This document shows, in pieces, positions 1,452-34,100 of a stretch of DNA of 34,223 bases (position 1 is its first letter; every line of letters begins with the position of its first letter). Under the pieces are notes generated by a model that did no database searches, was not told the origin of the DNA, and saw nothing but the letters and a program-made list of their open reading frames with translations. Both the position numbers and the translations under genes were made by a program. Source of the stretch: a virus; IMG/VR virus record IMGVR_UViG_3300028800_000229, positions 1 to 34,223 of that record; one strand, given 5' to 3'.

Positions 1452-1480
1452 AATATATGCGTGCTAGTTCGCATTGTCAA
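1452..1480 (-). promoter_or_regulatory. Near-consensus sigma70 promoter facing the cassette-like genes
   Basis: On the minus strand TTGACA (complement of 1475-1480) is followed by a 17-bp spacer and TATATT (complement of 1452-1457). The -35 is perfect and the -10 matches 5 of 6. Transcription would start near 1445, 2-3 nt before the ATG at 1443. The -35 box overlaps the stop codon of the upstream gene, so this promoter sits at the seam between the early operon and the cassette-like genes. Confidence 0.7.
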
Positions 1481-1830
1481 GCCTCTTTTTGGCAGTTATA
1501 CAGATCGGCTGTCCAGCTTGAGTAGTGCTTGCCTGATGCCTCGACAGCGGCGCGGTATTCCTGCTCTTTGTCAGTCGCCAGTTTCTTGGCTTCTTGGTAG
1601 CTCAGTCCCGTTGCCACGACTTCCTCGGAGTGGTCTTTCTTTGACAGGATCACAGAGTATTTCGACCAGCACCCTAACCCAGCGCCGGAGCCAACCACGA
1701 TTGGCGCTGCCAGTTGTCCGCCGCTGCCTTTGCAGCTAGGACATTCTTCGAGTTGTTCCATCATGTGTGTCAGCACTGTGCCTTTTCCATTGCACGTCTG
1801 GCAGCGGGAGTTTTGGTTTGCGGTAGTCAT
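1477..1830 (-). CDS. Small protein with paired DnaJ-type CxxCxGxG zinc motifs (117 aa)
   Basis: I place the start at the ATG at 1830, not at the earlier in-frame start at 1881, which would overlap the upstream gene. Residues 10-17 (CQTCNGKG) and 30-37 (CPSCKGSG) are two CxxCxGxG motifs, as in the DnaJ cysteine-rich domain, and would bind one zinc ion. No J-domain is present. The rest (40-117) has a Gly-rich stretch, then a basic/acidic helical region with a YQEAKKLATDKEQEYRAAVE segment. Such single zinc-knuckle proteins are common in phage early regions. It is the last gene of the leftward early operon. Substrate unknown. Confidence 0.65.
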   Translation of the reverse strand: MTTANQNSRCQTCNGKGTVLTHMMEQLEECPSCKGSGGQLAAPIVVGSGAGLGCWSKYSVILSKKDHSEEVVATGLSYQEAKKLATDKEQEYRAAVEASGKHYSSWTADLYNCQKEA

Positions 1831-1844
1831 AGATTCGTGGTGGC

Positions 1845-2108
1845 TCAGTTCGGGACGTTCCCCTGCAATTCCGCCTGCCATTGGCCCTCGGACAACACGG
1901 TCAGGCGGATGCGCGTCTCGATCTCCGCGATCTCCGCCTGCGGTTCGGCCAGCTTGATGAACGCCTTCACGGCGCAGCGCTGCGCCGCCACCAAGGCGCT
2001 GTTGGTGCTGTTGGCGCTCACGCCCAGCGGCCGGCCGTTGGCGTAGGCGCGCACCTGGTGATTATCGCCGCCGCGATACCTGGCCTGTTTGATAATGATG
2101 GTGTGCAT
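1845..2108 (-). CDS. Unknown early protein (87 aa)
   Basis: An 87-aa protein with a basic N-terminus (MHTIIIKQARYRGG) and an Ala-rich, probably helical middle (residues 35-65). The C-terminal third alternates charged and hydrophobic residues. The ATG at 2108 follows AAGGGACT, the same 5' sequence found before the MuB-like gene, and one of few Shine-Dalgarno-like leaders here. It is part of the leftward early operon, 22 nt after the 2131-2457 gene. No family recognised. Confidence 0.6.
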   Translation of the reverse strand: MHTIIIKQARYRGGDNHQVRAYANGRPLGVSANSTNSALVAAQRCAVKAFIKLAEPQAEIAEIETRIRLTVLSEGQWQAELQGNVPN

Positions 2109-3798: not shown

Positions 3799-6219
3799 TT
3801 AGGTGGTTACTGCGGAAAATTCGTGGTAATTGGGCGTGCCTTTGGCGAGATTGCGCTTGCCCAAGATCGTGGCGTCAATTTTCGCGGTCAGATAAGCGCA
3901 GACGCGGTCAAAGTTTTCCGGTGCATAGATGTCGCCGCCGAGTGCGTTCGCTGTGATACGGCGAGTGATGCCGAAGTTCACGGACCCGTGAAAGTCCTGG
4001 CCAAATGATTTGCCGGCCTTGCGGAACTCGGTCAGGCGCTTGAGCAAATAATCCACATACTGTTTTTCCTCATTACCAACCGGCTTGAGCGAGTAAAAGG
4101 TTTTGCCGCCTTCCACCGTGAGACCCGGTTTAGCCTGGGGAATGAGCGGATGCGACTGCCCGCCCGTCAAAATCTCATTCATTTCCTCGGTGCTCATTTC
4201 CGCCGGCTGGCTAGTGATGGCATCATTGCCCGTGGTCGCTGACAACCCCGCCCGTTGAAACTCTTCTGGCACTTCCACGCTGCTCATCAGCCGGCGCGTG
4301 TTTGCCTTGGTCACTTCTTTTTGCACATGCCGGTTGGCGGCGGCTTCGAGTTGCTCACCCACTTCTTGACCGGGCAACGGACGCGCTGCAAGCGTCTTGA
4401 TGGACCGTTGGAGATACGGTGCGAGGCTGGCGGCGTGCGTGCGGGCGACCTGCGAGGAAAGTTTTTTACGAAGCGTTTCTTTGGCGGTCTGTTCCTCGGT
4501 GGCACCAAATTTCGGAATGGGATTCACATACTCGGCGCGGCAGATGAATTTGTCCTGCTTGCCGCTGCGGATGGAATAGATCAGCGCATCCGCCTCGGGA
4601 TTCGCATCATTCCAGAACACGATGACCTTGCGCCCGCGCCATTGCTCCAGCGCCTCGGGGTTTGACCAGGTGTGATGGATCATGTTGCGGCCCGAGCCGA
4701 CGCCAATCCGCGCGCCGTTGCGCGTAATCTCCAACACCCGGTAGCTCGAACGGTAGAGCCACTTGGCGTGATCCGGCATCACTTCGAATGCCGGCGCATC
4801 CGCCGCCCACTTGTCCGCCGGGGCTTCTCCGCGCAGCACCTTCCCGTCGTTGCGCGTATGGTTCAGCGCATTCATCACCTTCTTGAGGTGCTCGGTGTAT
4901 TGCGACAGGTGCAGGAAGAATTGGCGCGGATGCGCGTGGTTATTTGCCACCAGCGCCTTCTGTTGTTTGACGGTTTCAGGGCAATCCTTCATTTCCATGC
5001 GCCCGCAAAAGCCAGGGACATTATCCGCCGCGTGCTGGAGCACGTTGAACATCTGCTCAATGATTTTTCCACGCGGAGTGCGAGTGTGGATCACCTTCAC
5101 GCCGAGCGAACTCAACCCGCCGAACCGCGTGGCGTCATCGAGATTGGTTTTCTGGCCGATGACCTGTGACGACTGCCAGGTGCCGCCTTCCAGCACGGCC
5201 TGCTTGAACAAGCCATATTCATCCAGCGTGTCGCCGATGAGACCCCAGACATCGTCCTTGTTATACTGGCCTTTCGGACGCATCACGGCGCGGATGTTCA
5301 GCCAGCACTGGCTGCCCACGTCGGCCACGGCGAGGATCTGCGGGCGGATGAGAATGAATCCCTCGTCATTCGGCCATTCCACCCAGACGTAGCAGTTGGC
5401 CGTCATGTCGTCGGCGGTGAAAGTATGTCCCGCCGGCACGTTGTCATACGTGCATTCCGTGAACGCGCCGTCCAGCTTCATTGCCTTGGGGCCGATTTGG
5501 ATGAGCTTGGTGGCCAGTTCCGGGGTGCGGAGCGCATCGCGCACCGATGGCGGGACATAGGATTTGGAGGCATACGCGCCATGCAGCCAGCGCCGGGCGC
5601 TGCCATTAATCGTGGGCGAGCCGGCGAGGTCGCGGAACGCGCTGGCGATGTTGAGCTGCGCCTTCGCATCGCCGCGCCGGGCGTTGCCATGCTCGATGGC
5701 GGCGGCGCGGCCCTGCAAAATCTGTTCATCAGTCAAATCATTCACAAATGGCTTCACGCCCACGCGGCCGCGCTTCTGTTCGCACAGGCCGTCAATGCCG
5801 TGCGCCTCATACTTGGCGTGCCACTGGCGCAGCGTGATCTTGTTGCCGAGCTTAAATAGAGGATGCTCGGTGTTCATGTGCTGGATGACGAGGTCCAGGG
5901 CGCGCTCCTTGCCAAAGGCGATATTGGCGATGAGCAGCTTCACGGCCTTCTCGCGCAGCAAAACATTTTCGCGCTGGGCATCATTGCCAGTGAGATCAGC
6001 AAAGCGGACCGCCGGTGCCACCGGCTGGCCCTGGTCTCGGCGCGGGCTGGCGATGATGATCTGGGCGATATTGGCCGGCACCTGGTATTCGTCGCGGTTG
6101 CCGTCGCGGCGACAGGGCCATTGCTCGCGCTGCGCTGTGCGATGCACCGTCTTCTTGCTGGCACCCGTGGCGCGGGCGATGTCCTTGGCGCAAAAATACT
6201 CGGCAGAGATATTTTCCAT
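3799..6219 (-). CDS. Mu-type DDE transposase (MuA-like), with Glu at the second catalytic position
   Basis: The start at 6219 gives 806 aa. An earlier in-frame ATG at 6243 (814 aa, used for numbering here) would overlap the upstream gene. Residues 10-60 hold a MuA-type N-terminal HTH (FCAKDIARATGASKKTVHRT). Helical end-binding domains follow (about 90-240), then an RNase-H-like core (265-420), a beta-barrel region (480-580) and a helical C-terminus that may contact MuB. By eye the core aligns with MuA: TADDM (Asp279, MuA Asp269) and KIIEQMF (Glu396, MuA Glu392). Where MuA has IDNTRG (Asp336), this protein has LEGGTW, with Glu352. The gene begins 1 nt after the stop of the 72-aa gene and is followed by the MuB-like gene. 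Family assignment is secure; the Asp-to-Glu alignment is an inference. Confidence 0.92.
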   Translation of the reverse strand: MENISAEYFCAKDIARATGASKKTVHRTAQREQWPCRRDGNRDEYQVPANIAQIIIASPRRDQGQPVAPAVRFADLTGNDAQRENVLLREKAVKLLIANIAFGKERALDLVIQHMNTEHPLFKLGNKITLRQWHAKYEAHGIDGLCEQKRGRVGVKPFVNDLTDEQILQGRAAAIEHGNARRGDAKAQLNIASAFRDLAGSPTINGSARRWLHGAYASKSYVPPSVRDALRTPELATKLIQIGPKAMKLDGAFTECTYDNVPAGHTFTADDMTANCYVWVEWPNDEGFILIRPQILAVADVGSQCWLNIRAVMRPKGQYNKDDVWGLIGDTLDEYGLFKQAVLEGGTWQSSQVIGQKTNLDDATRFGGLSSLGVKVIHTRTPRGKIIEQMFNVLQHAADNVPGFCGRMEMKDCPETVKQQKALVANNHAHPRQFFLHLSQYTEHLKKVMNALNHTRNDGKVLRGEAPADKWAADAPAFEVMPDHAKWLYRSSYRVLEITRNGARIGVGSGRNMIHHTWSNPEALEQWRGRKVIVFWNDANPEADALIYSIRSGKQDKFICRAEYVNPIPKFGATEEQTAKETLRKKLSSQVARTHAASLAPYLQRSIKTLAARPLPGQEVGEQLEAAANRHVQKEVTKANTRRLMSSVEVPEEFQRAGLSATTGNDAITSQPAEMSTEEMNEILTGGQSHPLIPQAKPGLTVEGGKTFYSLKPVGNEEKQYVDYLLKRLTEFRKAGKSFGQDFHGSVNFGITRRITANALGGDIYAPENFDRVCAYLTAKIDATILGKRNLAKGTPNYHEFSAVTT

Positions 6220-6220
6220 A

Positions 6221-6439
6221 TTATTTATTGGGTGCAGCGTCACGCTGCTTGCGTCCCTGTTCGATGAATGAATTTAGATCCACCACGCGGCAATGTTTCA
6301 CGGTCAGGCCATGATTCATCACGGCCTGCCAGCCCTGCACTTCCGAGGCAAACACGCTGGCCTCATCCGCTGGCACCATTTTTATGGCCGGCAGCAACAC
6401 CGGCGCACCCGCATAAAGAATGATGAAGCTGTTGTTCAT
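6221..6439 (-). CDS. Unknown 72-aa protein coupled to the hydrolase gene
   Basis: The longer open frame upstream is a shadow of the hydrolase gene. The ATG at 6439 overlaps that gene's TGA (ATGA), giving 72 aa. The N-terminus is hydrophobic (NNSFIILYAGAPVLLPAIKM), not clearly a signal peptide. The C-terminus is polar and basic. The last codons contain a hairpin plus CCCAAT motif that recurs before two other genes. It sits between hydrolase and transposase in the early operon. Function unknown. Confidence 0.55.
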   Translation of the reverse strand: MNNSFIILYAGAPVLLPAIKMVPADEASVFASEVQGWQAVMNHGLTVKHCRVVDLNSFIEQGRKQRDAAPNK

Positions 6440-9319: not shown

Positions 9320-9688
9320 ATGAATAGAAAACAGCCCAGTGCCTGGATGACGTGCGGCGTGGTTTGCCTCATGGTGGGCGTCTTCATGGTGGCTGGATTT
9401 TTCTTTGGCTACGATATTTCCGCACCATCCAACAATGCGATGGTCAGCCTGCAAAATCTTTCCACGCGCGAATGCGGCGTCCTCATCGGCCTGGGCATAA
9501 TTATTTTCGGAATGCTTTCGCTGGTGATCAATGCGCTGAATCTCATCGCGGCTCGCGCCAGGGAAATCCCGGAGAAGATAAGGGAGAATGAAGAAGCCGC
9601 GCTCGCGGCTGCGGCCGAGGCCAAGCGCCGGCAATCAGTATCGCCGTCACGTCTGCAGGAAATCGTTCAAAAAGCCAACAAGCCATGA
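9320..9688 (+). CDS. Two-TM membrane protein, holin candidate (122 aa)
   Basis: Two hydrophobic segments, about 11-30 (TCGVVCLMVGVFMVAGFFFG) and 53-75 (GVLIGLGIIIFGMLSLVINA), are joined by a short polar loop. A charged Ala-rich helical tail of about 45 residues follows. Size and topology fit a class II holin, but holins have no reliable sequence signature. The leader AGAGAAAAA-ATG supports the start. The stop overlaps the next start (ATGA), linking it to the 110-aa anchored protein. Confidence 0.5.
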   Translation: MNRKQPSAWMTCGVVCLMVGVFMVAGFFFGYDISAPSNNAMVSLQNLSTRECGVLIGLGIIIFGMLSLVINALNLIAARAREIPEKIRENEEAALAAAAEAKRRQSVSPSRLQEIVQKANKP

Positions 9689-10017
9689 AGATGAAACTCC
9701 TTTTCCTGACCATTGCAAGTGCCTTGCTGGCGGGAATCCTTTGGGTGCAGATCGCAGATCGGTCCGACCGGATTGCGAAGGAAGCGGCGGCGGCATTGGA
9801 AATTAAACGTGCTACTCAGATGGAACACTATGTTTATTTAAAAACCACTATTGCCTGTGCTGCTAAGGCAGCAGACGATGCGAAAAATTCTCTCGCGGCG
9901 GGAAGGTTGACAGTGGGTGTGTATAATAAAGTCGCGGACATGCTGCAAGCGGACATTTTGAAAAATCAAATTGAACTCGAAACCTATCCTTCCGATTTTC
10001 CGGCCCATTTGAAGTAA
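9685..10017 (+). CDS. Membrane-anchored small protein (110 aa), possible i-spanin
   Basis: Residues 4-22 are one hydrophobic segment (KLLFLTIASALLAGILWVQI) after a basic start. A helical, Ala/Lys-rich exported domain follows (30-110) with one Cys. A type II membrane protein with a periplasmic coiled helix after a holin-like gene is the layout of an inner-membrane spanin, and a lipoprotein gene follows at 10295. This is inferred from layout only. A strong terminator follows its stop. Confidence 0.45.
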   Translation: MKMKLLFLTIASALLAGILWVQIADRSDRIAKEAAAALEIKRATQMEHYVYLKTTIACAAKAADDAKNSLAAGRLTVGVYNKVADMLQADILKNQIELETYPSDFPAHLK

Positions 10018-10039: not shown

Positions 10040-10065
10040 AACCCGCCTCTCCGTCGGGTTTTTTT
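10040..10065 (+). terminator. Rho-independent terminator after the membrane protein pair
   Basis: AACCCG (10040-10045) and CGGGTT (10055-10060) pair around a 9-nt loop. They run into an unbroken T-tract to 10065, 23 nt after the stop of the 110-aa gene. It separates the repressor/membrane-protein block from the late genes. Confidence 0.75.
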
Positions 10066-10294: not shown

Positions 10295-10801
10295 ATGAAA
10301 AACAAATTCCTTCTCGCGGCATCAGCCGCTTTGGCCGTCATGCTAATGACTGGGTGTGCGCATTTCGCTAAAAAATCCACCACGTCGCATGAGCGCGTGG
10401 TGCGGGCCGTGGCGCTGCCGCCGGGATGGACGCTGATCGCCGCCAGCGATTCACTGAACCTGCCGCTGGTGGAAAGCGCCAGTTGGACGGGCTTTCAAAA
10501 CGCCGGAACCAACTTCGCCGCCGGCTTCTTTGCGCCGCGCCCGGCGGTGTTCGATGTCATCAAGGAAAGCTGGACCGATACCAGCAAGGGCGGCGGCACG
10601 TTCCTCTTTACCGATCCGCAGGCGTCGCAGGTGGCGTCCACGGTGGGCAACCAGGCTGCGCTGGCCGGCGCGCATACGTTTAACGTCGGCTCGGTGAGCG
10701 CCACCATCAGCAGCAACGCCGTGGCCGCGATCAATGCCACCGGCAACAGCGTGGGCAACATCATTGGCGCGGCGGCCAAGGCCGCTTCCGGCACACCTTA
10801 A
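10295..10801 (+). CDS. Lipoprotein of unknown function (168 aa)
   Basis: A type II signal peptide is clear: basic start, hydrophobic core and the lipobox MTGC with Cys21. The mature part begins polar. It includes an Ala/Val-rich strand region (RVVRAVALPPGWTLIAASDS), a Gly-rich middle, and a low-complexity Ala/Asn C-terminus (about 115-168) that looks like repeating beta turns. It would sit in the inner or outer membrane. Following a possible i-spanin, it might be the outer partner, though it is long for that. It precedes the lipase gene by 28 bp, a gap holding two AATCGTA repeats. Confidence 0.6.
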   Translation: MKNKFLLAASAALAVMLMTGCAHFAKKSTTSHERVVRAVALPPGWTLIAASDSLNLPLVESASWTGFQNAGTNFAAGFFAPRPAVFDVIKESWTDTSKGGGTFLFTDPQASQVASTVGNQAALAGAHTFNVGSVSATISSNAVAAINATGNSVGNIIGAAAKAASGTP

Positions 10802-10829: not shown

Positions 10830-11576
10830 TTGAATCCTTCGCCCAACATTGACTGGCCGCTGATCCGGCTGCTTGCTGCGCGCTGCGAACTTGCCTATCG
10901 CGAGAGCACCATCAGCGATGCCGCGACCGATGCGCAGGCCAATGTGACGCTGGAAACCATCGGCGGTGCGCCGGCCATCATCGTGGCGTTCCGGGGTAGC
11001 AGTGTGCCCAGGGATTTCTTGCAGGATGCGGAGTTCTGGATGGTGGCACCTAGCGGTGCGGCCACCGGCGGCCTACGAATCCACCATGGATTTCTTGAAG
11101 ACTTTACAGCCATAAGCGCCGCTGTGGTTGGCGCAGTTAAAAATCTGCTGGCGGAAAACCCGGTCGCTAAGGTCTATCTCACCGGCCATTCACTGGGCGG
11201 CGCACTGGCCATTCTCGCCGCGCTGGAGTTCAACCGCCAAAAATTGGCCGTCACGCTGGTGCTCACCTTTGGCCAGCCGCGCGTGGGCAACGCCGCCTTC
11301 CGCGATCTTTACGATGCCTATCTCAAAACCATCACGTTCCGCGTGGTGAATCAGAACGATATTGTGCCGCGCACGCCGGGCGTGCTGCTGAAATATCGGC
11401 ATTGCGGACAGGAAATATTTCTGGAACCCGGCACGGGCTGGGGCGTGAATCCGCCGCTGCTTTACAAGCTGGTCTGCGATGCGCTGGGACTCTGGGGCGC
11501 GTATCGGAACCGGTCGGACGTTTTAATCTCGCAGCATTTCATCGCTGCGTATCAAGGGAGATTGCAGCTTTTATGA
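10830..11576 (+). CDS. Class 3 lipase (alpha/beta hydrolase), TTG start (248 aa)
   Basis: Fungal-type (class 3) lipases hydrolyse ester bonds of lipids. The nucleophile elbow GHSLGGAL is at 119-126 (Ser121). The acid is probably Asp177 in VVNQNDIVPRTP and the base His236 in SQHFIAAY. Upstream signatures are AFRGS (53-57) and IHHGFLEDF (84-92), as in the family. There is no signal peptide, so it would act in the cytoplasm or reach membranes after holin action. The frame has no ATG; TTG at 10830 is the only sensible start. The stop overlaps the next ATG (ATGA). In a lysis-like block it may attack membrane lipids, as mycobacteriophage LysB esterases attack the outer layer. Confidence 0.88.
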   Translation: MNPSPNIDWPLIRLLAARCELAYRESTISDAATDAQANVTLETIGGAPAIIVAFRGSSVPRDFLQDAEFWMVAPSGAATGGLRIHHGFLEDFTAISAAVVGAVKNLLAENPVAKVYLTGHSLGGALAILAALEFNRQKLAVTLVLTFGQPRVGNAAFRDLYDAYLKTITFRVVNQNDIVPRTPGVLLKYRHCGQEIFLEPGTGWGVNPPLLYKLVCDALGLWGAYRNRSDVLISQHFIAAYQGRLQLL

Positions 11577-11929: not shown

Positions 11930-12190
11930 ATGGAACGCAAAAACGACATTCGCAAAGAAATCCTGTTCCAGCTTTACGGGGTGCGCCCGCTCTCGCTGTC
12001 GGCGGCGCGCATTGCCCGCGATTGCCGGAAGGGCGGTTACGATTATACCCCGGATGAAATCAAATCCGAACTGCAATTTTTGGAGGATGAAAAATTGATC
12101 ATCGGCGAGCGCGAACCCGGCACCACCGGCAAGGTGTTTCGTATCCATGCGCTCGGCGTGAGTGTTTACGAGGAAAAATACGCGGCCTGA
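11930..12190 (+). CDS. Winged-helix protein before the terminase genes, Mu gp26-like in position (86 aa)
   Basis: An 86-aa protein with winged-helix pattern. Helices are KEILFQLYGVRPLS and ARIARDCRKGGYDYTPDEI. A helix SELQFLEDEKLIIGER then leads to a wing, and RIHALGVSVYEEKYAA closes the fold. Similar short proteins precede the gp27-like small terminase in many Mu-like phages. It follows the coiled-coil gene by 3 nt and precedes the terminase small subunit by 29 nt. A DNA-binding role in packaging or late regulation is likely but unproven. Confidence 0.65.
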   Translation: MERKNDIRKEILFQLYGVRPLSLSAARIARDCRKGGYDYTPDEIKSELQFLEDEKLIIGEREPGTTGKVFRIHALGVSVYEEKYAA

Positions 12191-12219
12191 CCAGCGTGAT
12201 GCTGGACCCAATCAACACA

Positions 12220-12777
12220 ATGCCACAAGCCAGAACAGGAAAGATTGCCCGCGCCTCTTACGAGGTGCGCAAGCACGTCAATGAGATGCTTCGCGACGGC
12301 AAAACCGCCAAGGCGGTGATCAATTTTCTGAACGGCGCGGGCATCAGCGGCGTGACGGACATGAATGTCAGCAACTGGCGCGACGGCGGCTTTCAGGATT
12401 TTCTCAAGGAACAGACCCGGCTGGAGGAGATGCAGTTCAAGCGCGAGTTTGCCATGGAGATCGTGCGCCAGAATCAAGGCTCGCAGTTGCAGGAGGCCAC
12501 GCTGCACCTCGCGGCCAGCCAGCTTTATGAGGCGTTGACGGATTTCGACATCGGCCGGCTGAAGGAATTGCTGGATGAGAAGCCGGAGAATTACGCGGCC
12601 ATCGTCAACAGCCTGGCCAAGTTGAGCAAGGGCGCGCTGGAAGTGCAGAAATACAAGGACGCCGTCAGCCAGGCGCAGAAAGAAATACAGAAGTTGAAGG
12701 ATCCCAAACAGGAACTCAACGAAGACGACCGGAAGGCGATTGTCGCCAAGGTGGATGAAATTCTCGGACTCAAATGA
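12220..12777 (+). CDS. Terminase small subunit, Mu gp27 / DUF3486-like (185 aa)
   Basis: Earlier in-frame starts exist (GTG 12196, ATG 12199), but the ATG at 12220 follows CCCAATCAACACA, like other leaders here, and gives 185 aa. Residues 5-65 resemble the HTH of Mu gp27: KIARASYEVRKHVNEMLRDG, then KAVINFLNGAGISG and VSNWRDGGFQDF. The rest is a long helical region with coiled-coil potential (QKEIQKLKDPKQELNEDDRK). It would recognise phage DNA and recruit the large subunit. The stop overlaps the terL start (ATGA). Confidence 0.75.
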   Translation: MPQARTGKIARASYEVRKHVNEMLRDGKTAKAVINFLNGAGISGVTDMNVSNWRDGGFQDFLKEQTRLEEMQFKREFAMEIVRQNQGSQLQEATLHLAASQLYEALTDFDIGRLKELLDEKPENYAAIVNSLAKLSKGALEVQKYKDAVSQAQKEIQKLKDPKQELNEDDRKAIVAKVDEILGLK

Positions 12778-14291
12778 TTTTCGCAATTATCATGGCCGCC
12801 ATTTTACCAGCACTGAACGTCGAGGCCAAAGACGCGAAGGTCTCGCGTTATTTTCTCCCGTATCAAATGACGTGGATCAATGATGAGTCGCGGATGCGCT
12901 TCGCCGAGAAGTCGGTGCGCATCGGCTGGACCTATGCAGACGCCTTTAAGAACGTCCGCAAGCGGCTGTTGAACAAGAACCGCGATTATCTCTTCGCCAC
13001 CAAAGACCAGGCCTCGGCGGTGGAATATATGAAGACGTGCAGCGAGTTTGCGGACATCTTCAACTTTGCCAAATCCATCGTTTCACGCGGGGAAGATTCG
13101 CAGACGATTTCCGGCACGCTGCCCAGCGGCGAGAAGTTTACCCAGGAGATCAAGTTCAACTACATGAAGTTCGACAACGGGTCGCGCATCATGGCGTTCA
13201 GCTCCAATCCCTACGCGATGGCGGTGTTCGGCGGCGATGTGGGTCTGGACGAATTTGCGAAGCATCAGAATGCCGAGAAGCTTTGGGAGACGGCGCAAGG
13301 CCGCATTACGTGGGGCTATGACATCGGCATCTGGTCCGCTCACGACGGCACCGACACTTTGTTCTACCAGTTCGCGCAGGAAGCCCGCGCCGGCAAGGGC
13401 GGCTGGAGCTACTACCGGGTGACGATGGAAGATGCCGTGGCCCTTGGCCTGGTGGAGAAAATCAACGCGGTGCGCGGCACCAAGCTGACGCGCGAAGAAT
13501 TTATCGCCGACTGCAAGGTGCGCGCCCGGCTGCCGGAAATCTACGAGCAGGCTTACAACTGCAACCCGACCGGCTCGACTTCCGCGATTGTGCCGTGGGC
13601 GCAGATGGAACTTTGCCAGCAGGATTACAAAATCCCCCGTGTGCATCTGGAGGCGGCGCAGATCACCGAGGCCTTTGGCGACTTCAGGCCCGAACAGCAG
13701 GCCGCGCGTGAGAACCGCATCGCCAATTTTATTGCAGCAAGTTTTGCGGAGCTGATCAAAACGCCGGCGCAATACCGGCTCGGCTTTGACGTGGCGGCGA
13801 GCGGTGAGGGCGACTTGGCGAGTATCTACATTGACCACAAGGAACCGCCGCGCCTGAAACTCGCTGGCCTATTCACCTGCCGCACCAATGACTGGAACTT
13901 TTTGCAGACGGTTCTCTGGACGTTCCATCGCAAGCTGGCCGCTCTCAAGTCGGCCGGCGACGAGACGGGCCTCGGCCGGCAGATCTGCTGGGAGACGGCC
14001 AATTATTTTCCAGGTCAGTTCTCGCCGGTGAACTTCGCCAGCGAGAAGCACGACATGGGTTTTGCGCTGATGAACCAGTTGAGCGTGGCGGAAAAGGTTT
14101 TTCCGCGCAGCGAGCCGGACATCGCGGCGGATTATTTTGCGATGCGCAAAATCTTTTCCGGAAAGACGTGGAAGTTCACCGAGGGCCGCAACCTGCTTAA
14201 CCCGTCGAGCCATTGTGACATTGCCTGGGCGGGCGGTCTTTCCTCCAAGGCTGACGCCGGAGGCGGGGAAGTTTTTGCAATTGTTGTATGA
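12774..14291 (+). CDS. Terminase large subunit, Mu gp28-like (505 aa)
   Basis: The packaging motor ATPase and nuclease. AEKSVRIGWT (44-53) aligns with the non-canonical Walker A of Mu gp28-type terminases. Walker B is VFGGDVGLDE (Asp159, Glu160). The RNase-H-like nuclease begins at RLGFDVAASGEGDLASIY (Asp339) and ends near SSHCDIAWAGGLS (Asp482), matching the usual HxDxxxAxAL ending. Full length for the family. The ATG at 12774 overlaps the small-subunit stop; an ATG at 12792 is a possible alternative. The 3' end overlaps the following 53-aa gene (ATGA). Confidence 0.88.
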   Translation: MIFAIIMAAILPALNVEAKDAKVSRYFLPYQMTWINDESRMRFAEKSVRIGWTYADAFKNVRKRLLNKNRDYLFATKDQASAVEYMKTCSEFADIFNFAKSIVSRGEDSQTISGTLPSGEKFTQEIKFNYMKFDNGSRIMAFSSNPYAMAVFGGDVGLDEFAKHQNAEKLWETAQGRITWGYDIGIWSAHDGTDTLFYQFAQEARAGKGGWSYYRVTMEDAVALGLVEKINAVRGTKLTREEFIADCKVRARLPEIYEQAYNCNPTGSTSAIVPWAQMELCQQDYKIPRVHLEAAQITEAFGDFRPEQQAARENRIANFIAASFAELIKTPAQYRLGFDVAASGEGDLASIYIDHKEPPRLKLAGLFTCRTNDWNFLQTVLWTFHRKLAALKSAGDETGLGRQICWETANYFPGQFSPVNFASEKHDMGFALMNQLSVAEKVFPRSEPDIAADYFAMRKIFSGKTWKFTEGRNLLNPSSHCDIAWAGGLSSKADAGGGEVFAIVV

Positions 14292-20097: not shown

Positions 20098-23000
20098 ATG
20101 AAAACGTCAAAAACTGAAAATCTGAAACCGGCCGCGGCCGCGCTGCCAGCGCCAATGAAGGATCGCGCTATCAAAACCCCGGAACAGCGCCGGCCCGCGC
20201 GCACGGAAGATATTTTAGGCAAGCCGTCAGCTCGCCCGCTCACCCGCGCCATCATCGGCTTGATGATCCTGCTGGCTGTCTCCGCGCCGGCCTTGACAAC
20301 TATTTCTATCCACTTGCAGGTGATGACCGGTTCGCCGGTGAACCGCGACATCCATCTCATTCCCGACATACCGACGAATTCCCTGGTCAATGGCAACAAC
20401 CTCGTCGGCTTGTTACCGGTTCCACCGGTGCATCCGACCAACGGCGTGGGCTACGCCACGGTCTTGCCGTGGAGCTATACCTTGACCGTGGATGGCTGGC
20501 CGCGGGCCTATCACATCCAGGTGTTAGACAGCACTAATATTTTAGACGTGAGCAGCCTTATCACCAATTCGGTTTCCGTGGGTGCGCCGAATATTTTTGG
20601 TCTACCTTCCGTAACCGCCAGTAATTCCGCTTCCGTCACGTTCACCGGCAATGGCACACCAACTAATCCGTTGATGGCAACGGCAACGCTTGCGGGCAGC
20701 TTGGGGACGGCGGCGTATGCGGACACGAACCGATTTGATGCGGCGGGAACGGCAGCAAGCACGGCGACGGCGTTGAGTAACAGCATCGCGGCGAGCGGTC
20801 AGGCTTCAAATGCGCTCTATGCGGTCAGAGCGTCCAGCGCGGCGATAGTGGATAATGGAGTCACGAACGCGGTGGCTGATTCAAATGCAGTTGTTTATGT
20901 AGCCAGCGGGACGGTTCACATTGGCGGCTTACCTCCGTCCGGCGGTGGCTCTGGCTGGACGCCAAACAATGTTCAAAGCAATAACATTAATGGAGCGTTG
21001 ACAAACGGACAGACATTTTACATTTCAACGAATCAATACTTAATTAGTGGTTGCCCATCGAATCAATACAACGGCGTCATGACGATTTCAAAAGTAGGCA
21101 CAAGTTATCTCGACTACACAAATCCAAGCGGGAACCATTTGGTTTATAATGATCAGTCGGTTGGAAACACTTGGATTTTAACCCCCACAACAAACTCTGG
21201 TATTTATAATTATTACATTGACACATCTTTTAATTTGTCGAATCCGTTGCAGCCATTTATGGATATAAACTCCCATATTTCTGGTAATTACTGCTCTGCG
21301 ATTTATGTCACAAATACGCCATCTGGTGTTAAATCGCTGGTTATTGATAGGCCAGTTGTGGTTTCTGGTTTTCAGGCCAATGTAATAAATGTTGACTCAA
21401 TAAACGGTGATGATTCTCTAGGTATGGCTGGAAACTACCCATTTAAAACTATCAATGCGGCAGTAACTTCAACCACAAACTCTGCAACGATTTCAATCAA
21501 TCAAGGATTCTATAGTGAAACTGCCGTTATTCGCCCAAATCAGTCTGTTATTGGAAACGGGAGCAATGTTATTGTGCAGTCCATTTTTCTTGCGTCTGGC
21601 GATTACGTAAAAAACATAAAGGTAACGCAGCAAATTCAAGCATACCCAAATCGAAGTGCGGAGAATGTGGTTCTTGATTCAGTTTCTTCATACACCGGCA
21701 ATGTGGACTTATTTGTAACCGATTTCAGAACCAACTGGTTTTTTAAGAATTGCGATTTTAGAACAGATGGATCAACCGGCTCAACTATTTATAATGGGAC
21801 GGTAGTTGGAATTGAAGAACACTGGAATGAAAGCATATCGACCATCGGAGCCGGCACACAAGGTTACGTCTCTGGTTATGGTGGAAGCACCGGCGGCGGA
21901 GTCGGGAATCTTGGAGTGTGCCGAATCTATGGCGGAACGGTTATTTGCACGAATGTATCCGGGAGCTCCGGGTGTATTTTTATTCAGGATACAAACACGT
22001 CTTACGAACTTTATGGCGTAAATCTTCTTCATAATAACCGAGTGGATAATCCTGCAATCTTTACAAACTTTGCTCCGAGAGTTTCAATAACTGGCTATTA
22101 CACCGACAATGGTGTTCCGGTTTCGTTGTCCACAAACATCGCTAAATACTTTGTGGGTGATGGCGGCAAGCTAACCAACGTCATCGCGCTAGACTCTGTT
22201 CACGCCACAAACGCCGACTATGTGAACGGCACGTTGTCGAACAGCATCAGCGGCAGCGCAGCGTCAGCAACGGTGGTTACAACTGCCGCCCTGACGAATA
22301 GCGTTTATGCTACCAATATTTTATCGGGAGGCACTCTGCCAATGGGAATGCTACCATCAAATGTCCTAACCAATGCCGCCGCATTTGATACGAATGGAGC
22401 GGCATTATCAATGAGTAATTCAGTCTTTCAGGCAATTACAAATTGGGATGCGACGCAGGATTCGCAATACCTAGCAGCCACAAACGGAACGGCGGTCAAT
22501 CTCACCATCAGTTCTGGCAATATTCGCGGTGCTACAAATTACAGCGCGACCAATCTTGTCGGCACACTCCCGCTCGCGCAGTTGCCAGCGGTGGTGCTGA
22601 CGAACGGGGCGAATTTAACAAATGTGTTCTCTTATTTCGGATTGAATCCGGCGTTATTGACAGCGGCCTATGAATGTCCAGCTGCTCCGATTGGCGCGAC
22701 TGGCGTGCCGGCGTTGGTTGGTGAATCTGGTTGTGACGTTTTTACTCCATTTAAAGTATATCAAACTCGAACATTCACAAATATATGGTTTGGATTTCAA
22801 AATGGAACGAACACGGTAAAAGTTGCCATTTACAATTCGTCCCCGACCAACGGACTTCCGAGTTCATTGATTACTGGATTATCAACGAATGTTTTATCAA
22901 CGAATGGGTTTTCGTTGGTAACGAATGTTGTTTCATTAACACTTACGCCGGGACTGTATTATTTTGCGCTTTGCCCATCAAATTCCAGCGGTTCATTTAA

Positions 23001-23241
23001 CGGAGTTGGTTCTGACTACTCAAAAATTATTCCATCGCAATATACCATTATTACATCTAGCGCGATTTTGGGAGTAGCGGGCTTTCCCATTGGAGCAACT
23101 GGTGCGGCTAGTAAAGTCTCATTATTTTGCAGTGCTTTTTCGTTCAGCACATTTCCAAATGCAACATTTGACGGGCAGTTCAACGCGCCAGTCAACGCAA
23201 ATACCTATTGGATATATCCGGCGAGTATTTTTGCCCAATGA
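20098..23241 (+). CDS. Large fibre-like beta-helical protein (1047 aa)
   Basis: The largest protein here. Residues 1-50 are basic and polar and 51-66 hydrophobic (AIIGLMILLAVSAPAL). After 70 the sequence becomes Ser/Thr/Asn-rich beta repeats. About 430-620 resembles a pectin-lyase-like beta-helix (DSINGDDSLGMAGNYPFKTI, SATISINQGFYSETAVI). Tail-fibre modules recur later: GDGGKLTNV near 690, and two copies of a TN..GTLP...LP..VLTN unit near 740 and 817. The C-terminal 200 residues form a compact domain (APIGATGVPALVGESGC) that may bind receptors. From about 20980 the DNA becomes clearly more AT-rich than neighbouring genes, suggesting an exchanged tip. Placement between capsid and connector is unusual. 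Probable receptor-binding or head fibre. Confidence 0.65.
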   Translation: MKTSKTENLKPAAAALPAPMKDRAIKTPEQRRPARTEDILGKPSARPLTRAIIGLMILLAVSAPALTTISIHLQVMTGSPVNRDIHLIPDIPTNSLVNGNNLVGLLPVPPVHPTNGVGYATVLPWSYTLTVDGWPRAYHIQVLDSTNILDVSSLITNSVSVGAPNIFGLPSVTASNSASVTFTGNGTPTNPLMATATLAGSLGTAAYADTNRFDAAGTAASTATALSNSIAASGQASNALYAVRASSAAIVDNGVTNAVADSNAVVYVASGTVHIGGLPPSGGGSGWTPNNVQSNNINGALTNGQTFYISTNQYLISGCPSNQYNGVMTISKVGTSYLDYTNPSGNHLVYNDQSVGNTWILTPTTNSGIYNYYIDTSFNLSNPLQPFMDINSHISGNYCSAIYVTNTPSGVKSLVIDRPVVVSGFQANVINVDSINGDDSLGMAGNYPFKTINAAVTSTTNSATISINQGFYSETAVIRPNQSVIGNGSNVIVQSIFLASGDYVKNIKVTQQIQAYPNRSAENVVLDSVSSYTGNVDLFVTDFRTNWFFKNCDFRTDGSTGSTIYNGTVVGIEEHWNESISTIGAGTQGYVSGYGGSTGGGVGNLGVCRIYGGTVICTNVSGSSGCIFIQDTNTSYELYGVNLLHNNRVDNPAIFTNFAPRVSITGYYTDNGVPVSLSTNIAKYFVGDGGKLTNVIALDSVHATNADYVNGTLSNSISGSAASATVVTTAALTNSVYATNILSGGTLPMGMLPSNVLTNAAAFDTNGAALSMSNSVFQAITNWDATQDSQYLAATNGTAVNLTISSGNIRGATNYSATNLVGTLPLAQLPAVVLTNGANLTNVFSYFGLNPALLTAAYECPAAPIGATGVPALVGESGCDVFTPFKVYQTRTFTNIWFGFQNGTNTVKVAIYNSSPTNGLPSSLITGLSTNVLSTNGFSLVTNVVSLTLTPGLYYFALCPSNSSGSFNGVGSDYSKIIPSQYTIITSSAILGVAGFPIGATGAASKVSLFCSAFSFSTFPNATFDGQFNAPVNANTYWIYPASIFAQ

Positions 23242-30076: not shown

Positions 30077-32004
30077 AGACGCTTTCAACACCCGTTTCCA
30101 CGCAAGCCGCCGCCGTTAATAGCGGATGGGTTGAACTTTACGATTTTTATCTTTCAGCCAGCATCGCCACGCCGTGGGGAACCACCAATATCATCCGGCT
30201 TTGCACCTTGCCGAATGGATTCAGTTTCTTTGCGCCCACTCAATCCCCGGAACCGGCCGGCACGCAAGGCAACGCGCAGACGTATCAATACTGGCCCATC
30301 AAGCGCGAGGTGGTGAAGGGTGACACCAAGTTTCAGGATGACCGGCTGCAAATCACGGCCAGTAATGTGTCCTCGCAATTCGCGTCGCTGCTGGCGCTCG
30401 TCAACTGGTATGACACGCCGGTGGTGATCCGCAAGGTGCCGCTGTTTCAGACCGGGCTGACTTCGGGCGATTGCGTGGTGTTGTTTTCCGGATTGGTGGA
30501 CTCCATCAGCATCACGGCACAGGCTTTGCAGTTCACTTGCAGCAGCAGTCTCGGGGCCTTGAACAGCCTGCTGCCTTCGGAAAACATGCATGCGAGCTGC
30601 CGGTTCCGCTTTGGTGATGACCAATGCACTATCATCAAATATCTGCCGGAGAATTATCTGGCGGGAACTTGTGGCGCGGGCAGCAGCACCACCAACATCA
30701 AGTCTTCGGATCTGACACAGGACTCGGGCAGCAGCTCGGGTTATGGAACCGATTTGGTGGATGCCTTGGCGGATGGTGCCATTACCGCCAGCAGTTCATC
30801 CAACACTATGGTTAATGTCGCCTGCGCGATGTCTTTGTTTAAACTTTCCGCAGTGAATAATTTCACCATCGGCGCGGCGGTCGTTTTTTCAGCGAACACC
30901 ATGCCGTCAGGTTTGACGGCGGGCGTGATTTATTATGTTGTCTTTAAATCCACCAAAGACCCCACGGTGTTCTCTGTCAGCGCGTCAATCGGCGGCGCAC
31001 CCATCAGTGTCGGTTATGGTGCTGTAAATTTTAAAATCTCCAGCGCGAACCTTGATTATATTAACGCTGCCGTCACCATCAATCCGACCTCCAATATCGT
31101 CCAGAAAACTGCCCACGGCCTGGCTAACAATTATCTGGTCACTTTTTCCGCCGCCACCCTGCCGGCCCCGCTGGTTGCGGGATTCGCCTATTACGTTGTG
31201 AATGCGACCGTAAATAATTTTCAACTGGCGCTCACGCCCGGCGGGGCGGCGATTGATCTTACCACCGCCGGCACTACGGTTTTGGTCACCGCATTCTTAC
31301 CCGGGGCCGGTCCCGCCGGGGTGAAGGCATCAAACTTCTATGGCTGGTCTTTTGGTCTGGCTTCTGATTGGGGGACGCAGATCCAAGGTTACTATCAAAT
31401 CCCGGATGCGCAGGCCGGCTTGAAAAATGGCGCGCTGACGCCGTGGATTCAATTTGATTTTGGCAGCGCCGTATCTCCGAAGGTGTGGCAGGTGGCTAGC
31501 TTTGCGGGCGTCCAGCCGGAACAACGGGTGCGGCTGATTGAATTCTTTTCCTCCAGTAACGGTTCAACTTGGAATTTCGAAAGCTATTACGAAGTGCCGC
31601 GCCTCGGCGCGCAGTTGTTTGACGTGCTGATTCCAAACGCCTCATCGGCGCGTTATTGGCGTATCTGTGTCCGGTCGCGCTGGGCGGAACAGCTTTATTA
31701 TCTCATGTTCAGCCGGGTGAGCGCCTATGCCGGCTCGCGCAACTGGTGGCTGAATGGCCAGATTACGTTCGATGGCAATGTCACTCCGGCTTTGGCAAAT
31801 AAAACCGTGGCGGTGCGGTCAAGTTACAGCGGCGAGATTTTTTGCGCTCCATTGCCGGTCGCGCCGGCGAGCGGAGATACTTTTATCATCAAGCGTGGAT
31901 GTGGCCGCGCTTTCAATGACTGTTGTGCCCGTGGAAACACGGAAAATTACGGTGGCTTCAACGATCTTGAACTTCAAAACGTCATCCAAGCCCTGGCCCA
32001 ATGA
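30073..32004 (+). CDS. Tail hub protein (DUF2163/BR0599-like) with inserted discoidin-like domain (643 aa)
   Basis: Residues 1-190 match the DUF2163 type found in tail tips of siphophages and gene transfer agents. Visible are WVELYDFYLSASIATPWGTT, FQDDRLQITASNVS and CRFRFGDDQC. Residues 570-643 match the BR0599 C-terminal domain (GDTFIIKRGCGRAFNDCCAR, then NYGGFNDL). Between them lies a long insert. Its first part (about 220-415) has two related beta units (FKLSAVNNFTIGAAVVFSAN; AHGLANNYLVTFSAATLP), each ending in a YYVV segment. Its second (about 416-540) resembles an F5/8-type discoidin fold (LTPWIQFDFGSAVSPKVW, SSARYWRICVRSRW). Inserts like this suggest glycan binding. Overlaps both neighbours by ATGA. 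Confidence 0.72.
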   Translation: MKTLSTPVSTQAAAVNSGWVELYDFYLSASIATPWGTTNIIRLCTLPNGFSFFAPTQSPEPAGTQGNAQTYQYWPIKREVVKGDTKFQDDRLQITASNVSSQFASLLALVNWYDTPVVIRKVPLFQTGLTSGDCVVLFSGLVDSISITAQALQFTCSSSLGALNSLLPSENMHASCRFRFGDDQCTIIKYLPENYLAGTCGAGSSTTNIKSSDLTQDSGSSSGYGTDLVDALADGAITASSSSNTMVNVACAMSLFKLSAVNNFTIGAAVVFSANTMPSGLTAGVIYYVVFKSTKDPTVFSVSASIGGAPISVGYGAVNFKISSANLDYINAAVTINPTSNIVQKTAHGLANNYLVTFSAATLPAPLVAGFAYYVVNATVNNFQLALTPGGAAIDLTTAGTTVLVTAFLPGAGPAGVKASNFYGWSFGLASDWGTQIQGYYQIPDAQAGLKNGALTPWIQFDFGSAVSPKVWQVASFAGVQPEQRVRLIEFFSSSNGSTWNFESYYEVPRLGAQLFDVLIPNASSARYWRICVRSRWAEQLYYLMFSRVSAYAGSRNWWLNGQITFDGNVTPALANKTVAVRSSYSGEIFCAPLPVAPASGDTFIIKRGCGRAFNDCCARGNTENYGGFNDLELQNVIQALAQ

Positions 32005-34100
32005 AAATAACCGATGAAAAATATGTAGGCGTTCCCTGGAAGGACGGCGGCCGGAACTTTGCCGGCTGCGATTGCGTAGGGCTGACCTGTCTTTGGTTGA
32101 AGAATGAATTTGGATTTAAAGCACCTGTCCCATCCAGCGAACAGCGACCGGCTGATTTAAAAAACCTATTGGCTGGCCATGGGTTTGAGGAAAAGAAACT
32201 GGCGCGCGGCGATGTTGTTTTCTTTGCGCATAAAGATGGGGAAATCCGCCATGTCGCTGTTTGGTTGGGTGGTGGAAAACTGCTGCACACCTTTCGGGGA
32301 GCGCCGTCGCGGATTGAGAACGGTTTTACGCTTTCACGGCGGGTGGGAATGACGCCTGTCGCCTCAGTTAATGTGCGGGAAGCGGAAATCTTGGCACAGG
32401 CTTTGGCGGATAAACAACTCGGTGATCCGACCACCTGGATACTGATTGGAGTTTCGATATTTCTTAGTGTGGCGTCCGCCTTGATTTCGATGTTGCTGCT
32501 TCCGAGCAAGGGGAATAATTATGGCAAATACAGCTTCAACGGCCTGCTGACCCAGAATTCGCCTGAAATACCTTTGCCGGATATTCTAGGCAATGTCACG
32601 GTGGCGGGTAACTCTCCCTACACTCAGTTGGCTGATAAAAACCTCACCATAACCAGCCAGCAGCAGCAGGCTGCAAATAAAGTTGTTGTGCTTGCCAGCG
32701 GACCTATCTGGGATGTGGATTCCAATAATCTTAATATTCTTATAAACGGTTTGACCTATACCGATGCGTCATTTTTTTCTGGCGATCAGACCACGGGCAT
32801 CGCCCTGAATCCGACGCAGGACAAGGCGAACGCCGTGAGTGGAACCATTGGCTCGGATACTTATGTTCCCAGCCTGACCATTTACGATGGTCATCATGAT
32901 CTCATTGTGCCGGTGGATATCCGGGCCAGCTACGACCGAACCTTTCCGGTTTATGGCTATTCTGGCGCCGCTTATATGGTTTTCCGCCTGATCAATTCCT
33001 CGGTTTTCACCAGCTTTAATCTCAATTCCACGGTGCAGGGACGCTTGTGCCGGACTTATGATTCGAGCGGCTTCATCACCGCCACCAGCACGGCTGAGGC
33101 GGTGGGAACCGGGGATGGTTCGACTGTCCGTTTTAAATTGGCAAATTGGGATGTGGCGGCGCTGTCCTCGCTGACGGTGGGTGGCACGGCTTATACGCAG
33201 ATTGCGCCAGGCAACCAGACTGGCAATGTGTTCAATCTGAATGCGACCAAGGGATTCATCGAATTTATCACCGCGCCTGGCAGCGGCGCGGCTGTCGTGG
33301 CTACCTATGCGTATTATGTCCGCGCCTGGACGCAATGCCCGGCAGACCAACTGGTTTATCTGCTTACCGAAAAAGGCCGGGGCAAGGGCTATGACTCCGG
33401 CAAGATCAACTGGGCCTGTGCAGTGGCCTTTCAGACCTATTGCAACGCCTCTGTAACCTGGACAAATTCCGCCGGTGTCGCCACCACTCCGCGCTATACC
33501 ACCAATTACGCGGTGGATTTCCGCAAGCCGATTCAGGAGCACATTAAAGCCCTCTGCGATGCTTCCCATGCCTGTCTCTTCATCAGCGGCGGCAAGTTTG
33601 TGATGAAGGCTATCACGCAGGCGACTAGCATCTTTTCTTTTAACGAGAGTAATATTCTCGAGGATTCGTTTGATGCCAACCTGGTTGAGCGGTCGCAGTT
33701 GCCTAATCGGGTGAAGGTGTTTTTTAACGACCAGAGCACCTACAATTCCCAGACCGAGGTGGACATTGACAATCAGGCTGATCAGGAAGCCCGCGTCGCC
33801 CGGGTTGGAAATGATGGGGTGGTTGAACAAACCTTGCAGTTTACGGCGATAGATAATGATTCGCAGGCAGATCGTATTGGGCAGGTGCTGCTGGCGGAAG
33901 CGTCTAATGTGTTTTGGACGGCTAATTTTAAAACCACTGTGCTGGGTCTGGCCTTGGAACCCGGCGATGTGATTGATTTGACTCATAGTTCCCAGCCGGC
34001 ATGGAATCAGAAGCTCTTTCGAGTGGAGAATTTGCAGTATGGTGATGACGACCGGCTAGAGCTTCAGGTAAGTGAATATTTCGACGGGGCGTATATCTAA
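32001..34100 (+). CDS. Fused NlpC/P60 peptidase - TM segment - J-like tail tip protein (699 aa)
   Basis: Residues 5-118 are an NlpC/P60 domain: WKDGGRNFAGCDCVGLTCLW with catalytic Cys25, GDVVFFAHKDGEIRHVAVWL with His84, and LLHTF with probable third residue His96. Residues 144-168 are a hydrophobic segment (PTTWILIGVSIFLSVASALI). Residues 185-699 resemble the lambda gpJ / phage-tail_3 type hub. They begin SPEIPLPDILGNVTVAG, include AYDVRKPI-like NYAVDFRKPIQEHIKALCDA, and end LALEPGDVIDLTHSSQP. In lambda these roles are split among gpK, gpI and gpJ. Here one polypeptide carries all three. It probably cuts peptidoglycan and anchors the tip during DNA entry. Confidence 0.82.
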   Translation: MKITDEKYVGVPWKDGGRNFAGCDCVGLTCLWLKNEFGFKAPVPSSEQRPADLKNLLAGHGFEEKKLARGDVVFFAHKDGEIRHVAVWLGGGKLLHTFRGAPSRIENGFTLSRRVGMTPVASVNVREAEILAQALADKQLGDPTTWILIGVSIFLSVASALISMLLLPSKGNNYGKYSFNGLLTQNSPEIPLPDILGNVTVAGNSPYTQLADKNLTITSQQQQAANKVVVLASGPIWDVDSNNLNILINGLTYTDASFFSGDQTTGIALNPTQDKANAVSGTIGSDTYVPSLTIYDGHHDLIVPVDIRASYDRTFPVYGYSGAAYMVFRLINSSVFTSFNLNSTVQGRLCRTYDSSGFITATSTAEAVGTGDGSTVRFKLANWDVAALSSLTVGGTAYTQIAPGNQTGNVFNLNATKGFIEFITAPGSGAAVVATYAYYVRAWTQCPADQLVYLLTEKGRGKGYDSGKINWACAVAFQTYCNASVTWTNSAGVATTPRYTTNYAVDFRKPIQEHIKALCDASHACLFISGGKFVMKAITQATSIFSFNESNILEDSFDANLVERSQLPNRVKVFFNDQSTYNSQTEVDIDNQADQEARVARVGNDGVVEQTLQFTAIDNDSQADRIGQVLLAEASNVFWTANFKTTVLGLALEPGDVIDLTHSSQPAWNQKLFRVENLQYGDDDRLELQVSEYFDGAYI

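Follow-up and report, generated by a model that had tools for sequence, protein, structure and literature searches.

Comparison of a Mu-like phage with its relatives revealed that a class 3 (fungal-type) lipase and a range of peptidoglycan hydrolases take each other's place at a single locus, the slot upstream of the late gene block. The window analysed, a virus record of 34,223 bases, carries the lipase gene at 10830–11576 on the plus strand. Judged from gene content and order, it is an evenly balanced proposition that the lipase and its outer-membrane partner form a lysis module standing where relatives keep a holin–endolysin pair.

The lipase gene encodes 248 amino acids; TTG is the first start codon of its reading frame and an in-frame stop precedes it, so that TTG is left as the first possible start. 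The product was matched by Pfam Lipase_3 (PF01764; 120.3–121.8 bits, E 7.4e-35, curated cut-off 22) and by PHROG 21992 'esterase/lipase' (E 2.4e-20). Its nucleophile elbow GHSLGGAL (GXSXG) is intact, and the triad S121/D177/H236 is invariant across 29 aligned phage relatives, which were chosen out of 33 strong relatives (at least 240 bits) and are 33–70% identical to the window protein. An AlphaFold2 model with these 29 relatives as input attained a mean pLDDT of 89.9, and in structure searches with viral Foldseek and VIA the closest solved structure was Rhizomucor miehei lipase 3tgl (Z 26.0, rmsd 2.5, 224 residues), followed by Aspergillus feruloyl esterase 1uza (Z 25.3), with the plant phospholipase A1 (PLA1) 2yij scoring less well (Z 21.0). 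Profile, triad and fold thus bear out the original prediction of an intact class 3 lipase started by TTG, its activity being predicted; lipase, phospholipase and ester-of-sugar activities are not distinguished by the modelled fold. The seven Pfam matches at E up to 0.05 were to alpha/beta-hydrolase families only, with neither a cutinase family nor a peptidoglycan-cutting domain among them. Four pairs of lipases gave a dN/dS of 0.20–0.27, dS approaching saturation in three of them, and the L045/L046 pair had a dN of 0.094 and dS of 0.46, indicating at the sequence level that the gene is under purifying selection. The whole fold, the GHSLGG elbow and the Ser-Asp-His order are shared with the fungal-type class 3 lipases (3tgl, 1uza and 2yij), whereas the window lipase is leaderless, phage-encoded, placed in a late operon and paired with an outer-membrane protein gene. 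A sequence scan of the protein revealed no signal-peptide-like or transmembrane (TM) stretch, and hence a cytoplasmic location would be expected.

By gene content and order the window phage is Mu-like, with MuA and MuB genes and the late order gp26-like, terminase small subunit (TerS), terminase large subunit (TerL), portal and Mu F; the Mu-type transposition genes and late operon described earlier were recovered with Pfam and PHROGs. They comprise a Mu-type transposase (3799–6243, minus strand, phrog_310), a MuB-like gene (phrog_296), a terminase of the Mu type, tail genes, and a portal to which a Mu F-like domain is fused. On the plus strand, the lipase is followed by a one-TM coiled-coil protein of family C0 (11573–11926), whose ATG shares bases with the stop codon of the lipase (ATGA), and a winged-helix-like protein of family C4 (11930–12190; phrog_436) related to Mu gp26 by hhalign (E 2.3e-5, probability 76). 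TerS (12196–12777) comes next, matched weakly by phrog_426 (E 0.004) and a conserved neighbour of TerL, and then TerL itself (12774–14291), a Terminase_6N protein 29% identical to Mu gp28 that served as the anchor of the synteny survey. The corresponding order in Mu is late activator C, gp22 endolysin, gp23 Rz-like spanin, gp24, gp25 (DUF2730), gp26, TerS and TerL, and the kinship of the 11930–12190 protein with gp26 places the lipase where Mu has its endolysin and spanin. The lipoprotein–lipase pair thus resembles gp22–gp23 in standing upstream of gp26-like, TerS and TerL genes, and differs in that Mu has a peptidoglycan endolysin and a spanin at that place. C0 was considered as a gp25 homologue and rejected, hhalign giving no match and PHROGs only weak single matches.

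Upstream of the lipase on the same strand lies the partner gene (10295–10801), which encodes a 168-residue predicted lipoprotein with a lipobox MTGC at residues 18–21 and stops 28 bases before the lipase; it matched 0 Pfam or PHROG families. A terminator-like hairpin with a T run (10040–10065, plus strand; fold −7.5 kcal/mol, z −3.14), missed by a consensus scan, stands between the lipoprotein–lipase operon and an upstream pair of plus-strand membrane genes. The first of these (9320–9688) encodes a two-TM protein with a charged C-terminal tail and holin-like topology, a two-TM gene at this place not being conserved in relatives, and the second (9685–10017) a one-TM protein of i-spanin-like topology by inspection only. 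Elsewhere in the window, the early region carries a zinc-ribbon protein of the DnaJ CXXCXGXG/anti-TRAP type scoring under Pfam cut-offs (1477–1881, minus strand). A 1047-residue protein (20098–23241) with no family in Pfam or PHROGs is encoded between the major head protein and connector genes, and its homologues occur in 6 of 15 lipase-bearing against 0 of 10 hydrolase-bearing records.

Relatives of the TerL were found at 14 loci in bacterial genomes, 13 of them named as Verrucomicrobia, Verrucomicrobiaceae, Akkermansia, Luteolibacter, Prosthecobacter or Rubritalea, the other only as 'bacterium'. Among the 13, locus L112 of a Verrucomicrobia metagenome bin carries the lipase. The window phage, its host being judged from these TerL relatives, and its lipase-bearing kin therefore probably infect diderm Verrucomicrobiota.

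The position of the lipase is strictly kept. After duplicate loci were dropped, 43 loci had a lipase above 150 bits (the lipases of L041 and L042 being identical), and in each of the 33 that score at least 240 bits, as in three below 240 bits, C0, C4 or TerL follows at a distance of no more than 3.5 kb; the remaining seven, at 152–175 bits, have none of the three within that distance. The downstream block runs TM/coiled-coil, gp26-like, TerS, TerL. Placement of the lipase in a lysis block, as originally predicted, is thus upheld more strongly by the relatives than by the window alone, and the linkage survey then suggested yielded a late-block position in every strong relative, so that the gene is not stray cargo. 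Among named phages only 3 records hold a lipase relative (27–39% identity), at least 575 candidate relatives were found in viral contigs, and 11 of 387 genomes of the Verrucomicrobiota phylum gave a match at E up to 1e-30. Of the host-genome lipase loci L191, L194, L195, L196 and L204, C0/C4 adjoins only L191, which is the L112 gene. In some relatives DNA methyltransferases (D12, N6_N4) part the lipase from the TM/coiled-coil gene, at L043:11216-11989 and L112:7854-8810. A Verrucomicrobia prophage carries a more distant class 3 lipase (L110:2883-3776) in a different gene order, with TerL 6.2 kb downstream.

Relatives lacking the lipase, which the original prediction had held would count against it if they lysed normally, have often had the slot swapped to a canonical endolysin and do not present a plain loss. 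A peptidoglycan hydrolase, drawn from many families, occupies the slot in 19 of 65 lipase-lacking loci against 0 of 36 lipase-bearing loci (p 1e-4, loci related), and makes up at least 17 of 118 lipase-lacking slot proteins against 0 of 136 lipase-bearing ones (Fisher p 1.1e-6, uncorrected for kinship). Since the loci are related, these p values overstate the swap; within the closest terminase group alone the hydrolase was found in 11 of 22 lipase-lacking against 0 of 6 lipase-bearing loci (p 0.055). The families were Amidase_3 (L015, L018, L102, L140), M15_4/VanY (L016, L133 and cluster mates), M15_3 (L101 and cluster mates), CHAP (L103, L132 and cluster mates), phage lysozyme (L021) and, with a score under the cut-off, DPBB (L011). 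The tally also holds a phospholipase D-like protein, one GH108 and one Amidase_2, its counts being minima among the first 25 of 43 families. No peptidoglycan hydrolase was present among all 16 Pfam families of the 136 lipase-bearing slot proteins, which include DNA methyltransferases (4 D12, 1 N6_N4) and HTH proteins.

The 65 loci were obtained from 68 lipase-lacking loci (65 plus L007, L020 and L102) by removing the near-copies L022, L165 and L181. The 118 slot proteins are mostly cluster representatives picked among the 206 slot ORFs that 65 loci contain, and include four ORFs from the short loci L007, L020 and L102, while the 136 are 138 ORFs minus one each from L042 and L045. Ten of the 19 hydrolase loci match directly over the cut-off (L015, L016, L018, L021, L101, L102, L103, L132, L133, L140), L011 was counted though under it, and eight entered through the tally or cluster membership (L010, L100, L105, L124, L139, L149, L150, L151), the slot protein of L010 itself having no Pfam match. 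Two permuted papain-like (C92-type) slot proteins with weak Pfam matches, L007:678-1457 (E 0.011) and L156:7540-8196 (E 3e-5, under the cut-off), were left out of the 19; by sequence they are possibly a further endolysin type.

A holin-like family, C5, follows the same division, with members at 15 loci that lack the lipase (L180, a weak match, would be the 16th) and at 0 of 36 lipase-bearing loci. By hydropathy, 11 of the 15 have three membrane stretches and the remainder one or two, and a peptidoglycan hydrolase comes after C5 in 12 of the 15 loci, with a short ORF intervening in some. When all families were compared, the lipase occurred in 15 of 15 lipase-bearing and 0 of 10 hydrolase-bearing records, and no other family came near this pattern save reading frames overlapping the lipase. 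On a terminase tree built by a quick search the lipase label needs three changes. The well-supported nine-row set containing the window comprises four lipase phages, L007 with its weak C92-type peptidase match and four unlabelled rows, and the lipase-bearing L006 and L013 pair with L007 (support 94/85) and L099 (100/100), respectively. The tree, with few pairs resolved, fits slot swapping within close relatives. In L099 the barrel gene described below is kept, as in no other lipase-lacking locus by profile, and a small protein replaces the lipase, which speaks against the lysis-module reading. This protein of 137 residues (L099:1795-2208), between the barrel gene and C0, has no Pfam match and may resemble DUF1353.

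The gene before the lipase was classified in 32 loci, of which 15 have a lipobox, as in the window, 16 encode an exported beta-rich protein and one (L041) neither. The beta-rich proteins end in F/Y in 15 of 16 cases, that of L026 ending in L. A model of the L049 partner from 9 sequences has eight strands (mean pLDDT 77.8, about 90 in most strands) and matches the OprF, OmpW and OmpA barrels at Z 16.7 to 14; the beta-type partner is accordingly a predicted 8-stranded outer-membrane beta-barrel. L045 and L046 have closely related lipases and nearly the same partner signal peptide, followed by a lipoprotein in the former and a barrel in the latter, from which the two kinds look interchangeable. 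In L007, whose TerL is 80% identical to that of the window, a predicted lipoprotein (L007:110-706) just upstream of the slot enzyme has an HCxxxxxR motif that we take to be tyrosine-phosphatase-like.

Beyond the slot, profile searches for Amidase_3, M15_4, CHAP, phage lysozyme, SLT and Amidase_2 gave no match in any of the 34 lipase-bearing records (15 of at least 30 kb, 19 under 30 kb); in 16 lipase-lacking control records they gave 2, 2, 1, 1, 0 and 1, respectively, the Amidase_2 lying below the cut-off with an internal stop. The claim that the window has no standard late endolysin holds for the families searched. Its one peptidoglycan-peptidase domain is an NlpC/P60 domain (32028–32294) at the N-terminus of a tail protein with Phage-tail_3 (32001–34100, plus strand), likely a virion peptidoglycan hydrolase of the tail tip used for entry. 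NlpC/P60 occurs in 5 of the 34 lipase-bearing records (window, L030, L044, L045, L046; three over the cut-off), about 20–21 kb downstream of the lipase in contig coordinates in all five, against 0 of 16 lipase-lacking ones, so that the tail peptidase might share in, and could in principle also serve, lysis. No conserved holin was found: only 6 of 29 lipase-bearing loci have, in the 3 kb before the lipase, an ORF with at least two TM stretches. On this count the window protein at 9320–9688 was rejected as a holin of the core module. The missing conserved holin argues mildly for an enzyme acting on the inner membrane itself.

As a lysis enzyme, the lipase would be expressed late along with the head genes, stay in the cytoplasm and hydrolyse acyl esters of membrane lipids, those of the inner membrane first and of the outer membrane after, while the lipoprotein or beta-barrel partner would weaken or target the outer membrane. 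The peptidoglycan might be opened by host autolysins set free at membrane collapse, or by an unrecognised hydrolase. Members of Verrucomicrobia subdivision 4 have been demonstrated to contain peptidoglycan (PMC5303756), so virions should stay trapped if the lipase works by itself, with no help from such autolysins or an unseen enzyme. An endolysin and a holin are considered necessary for the escape of double-stranded DNA phages (PMC5707550), and the strict form of the proposal, a group of tailed phages of diderm hosts with neither, in which a cytosolic lipase and its outer-membrane partner destroy the membranes and host autolysins the sacculus, is possible but on the doubtful side.

A third step akin to that of mycobacteriophage LysB, in which the lipase opens the outer membrane only, as a spanin substitute, and an unrecognised endolysin cuts the peptidoglycan, is an unlikely but serious alternative. 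The partner is outer-membrane directed, and LysB, an alpha/beta serine hydrolase with GXSXG encoded in the lysis region of a phage whose host has an outer barrier, is a precedent for a lipolytic last step (PMC6116114). LysB is cutinase-like and its gene lies downstream of the endolysin gene lysA and adds to it (PMC6116114), whereas the window lipase is closest in fold to fungal class 3 lipases, its host is diderm and probably of the Verrucomicrobiota, and within the limits of profile sensitivity no lysA-like endolysin was found beside it in the slot or among the six families in 34 records. The parallel with LysB drawn at the outset accordingly stands for the class of chemistry and fails for the arrangement, LysB working alongside an endolysin (PMC6116114). 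The absence of endolysin candidates from the 136 slot proteins, and of any second family found in all 15 lipase-bearing and none of the 10 hydrolase-bearing records, also disfavours a hidden endolysin. Recognised hydrolases in only about 3 of 10 lipase-lacking loci nevertheless mean that many endolysins of the group escape Pfam and that one could hide in the lipase-bearing phages; this modest profile sensitivity keeps the alternative alive.

Prophage outer-membrane beta-barrels and lipoproteins often serve superinfection exclusion, receptor change or lysogenic conversion, and on that general ground the pair might be a late-expressed modifier of the envelope with no part in lysis. Such a role is distinctly unlikely: in other phages of the group endolysins and holin-like genes take the slot, the stop codon of the lipase gene shares bases with the start codon of the late gene after it, and the lipase lacks a signal peptide for export. 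Metabolic cargo, by which the lipase would mobilise host lipids for phage replication or host benefit, is very improbable: class 3 lipases do occur in other viruses and phages, such as cyanophages, and the candidate relatives in viral contigs are numerous, but one fixed place in all 33 strong relatives, a paired outer-membrane gene and the exclusion of endolysins would be unexpected of cargo.

Returning to the lipase and its partner as a lysis module, a comparable published arrangement is the GDSL-like lipase in the lysis cassette of phages of the Gram-negative Pseudomonas syringae pv. actinidiae, proposed to perturb the outer surface (PMC12173070). That enzyme belongs to the GDSL family, has a carbohydrate-binding domain and adjoins a holin and endolysin and does not stand instead of them (PMC12173070). 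Lipolytic lysis proteins are hence already known, and a class 3 lipase at the place of the endolysin appears new, no report of one in a phage lysis cassette or replacing an endolysin having been found in the open-access literature.

Overall, a locus with interchangeable hydrolases and lipase offers a direct test of whether lipid hydrolysis suffices in a diderm host, and the lipase together with its outer-membrane protein is a possible "enzybiotic" lead. For the phages of Verrucomicrobiota, the lipase module presents a concrete lysis candidate.
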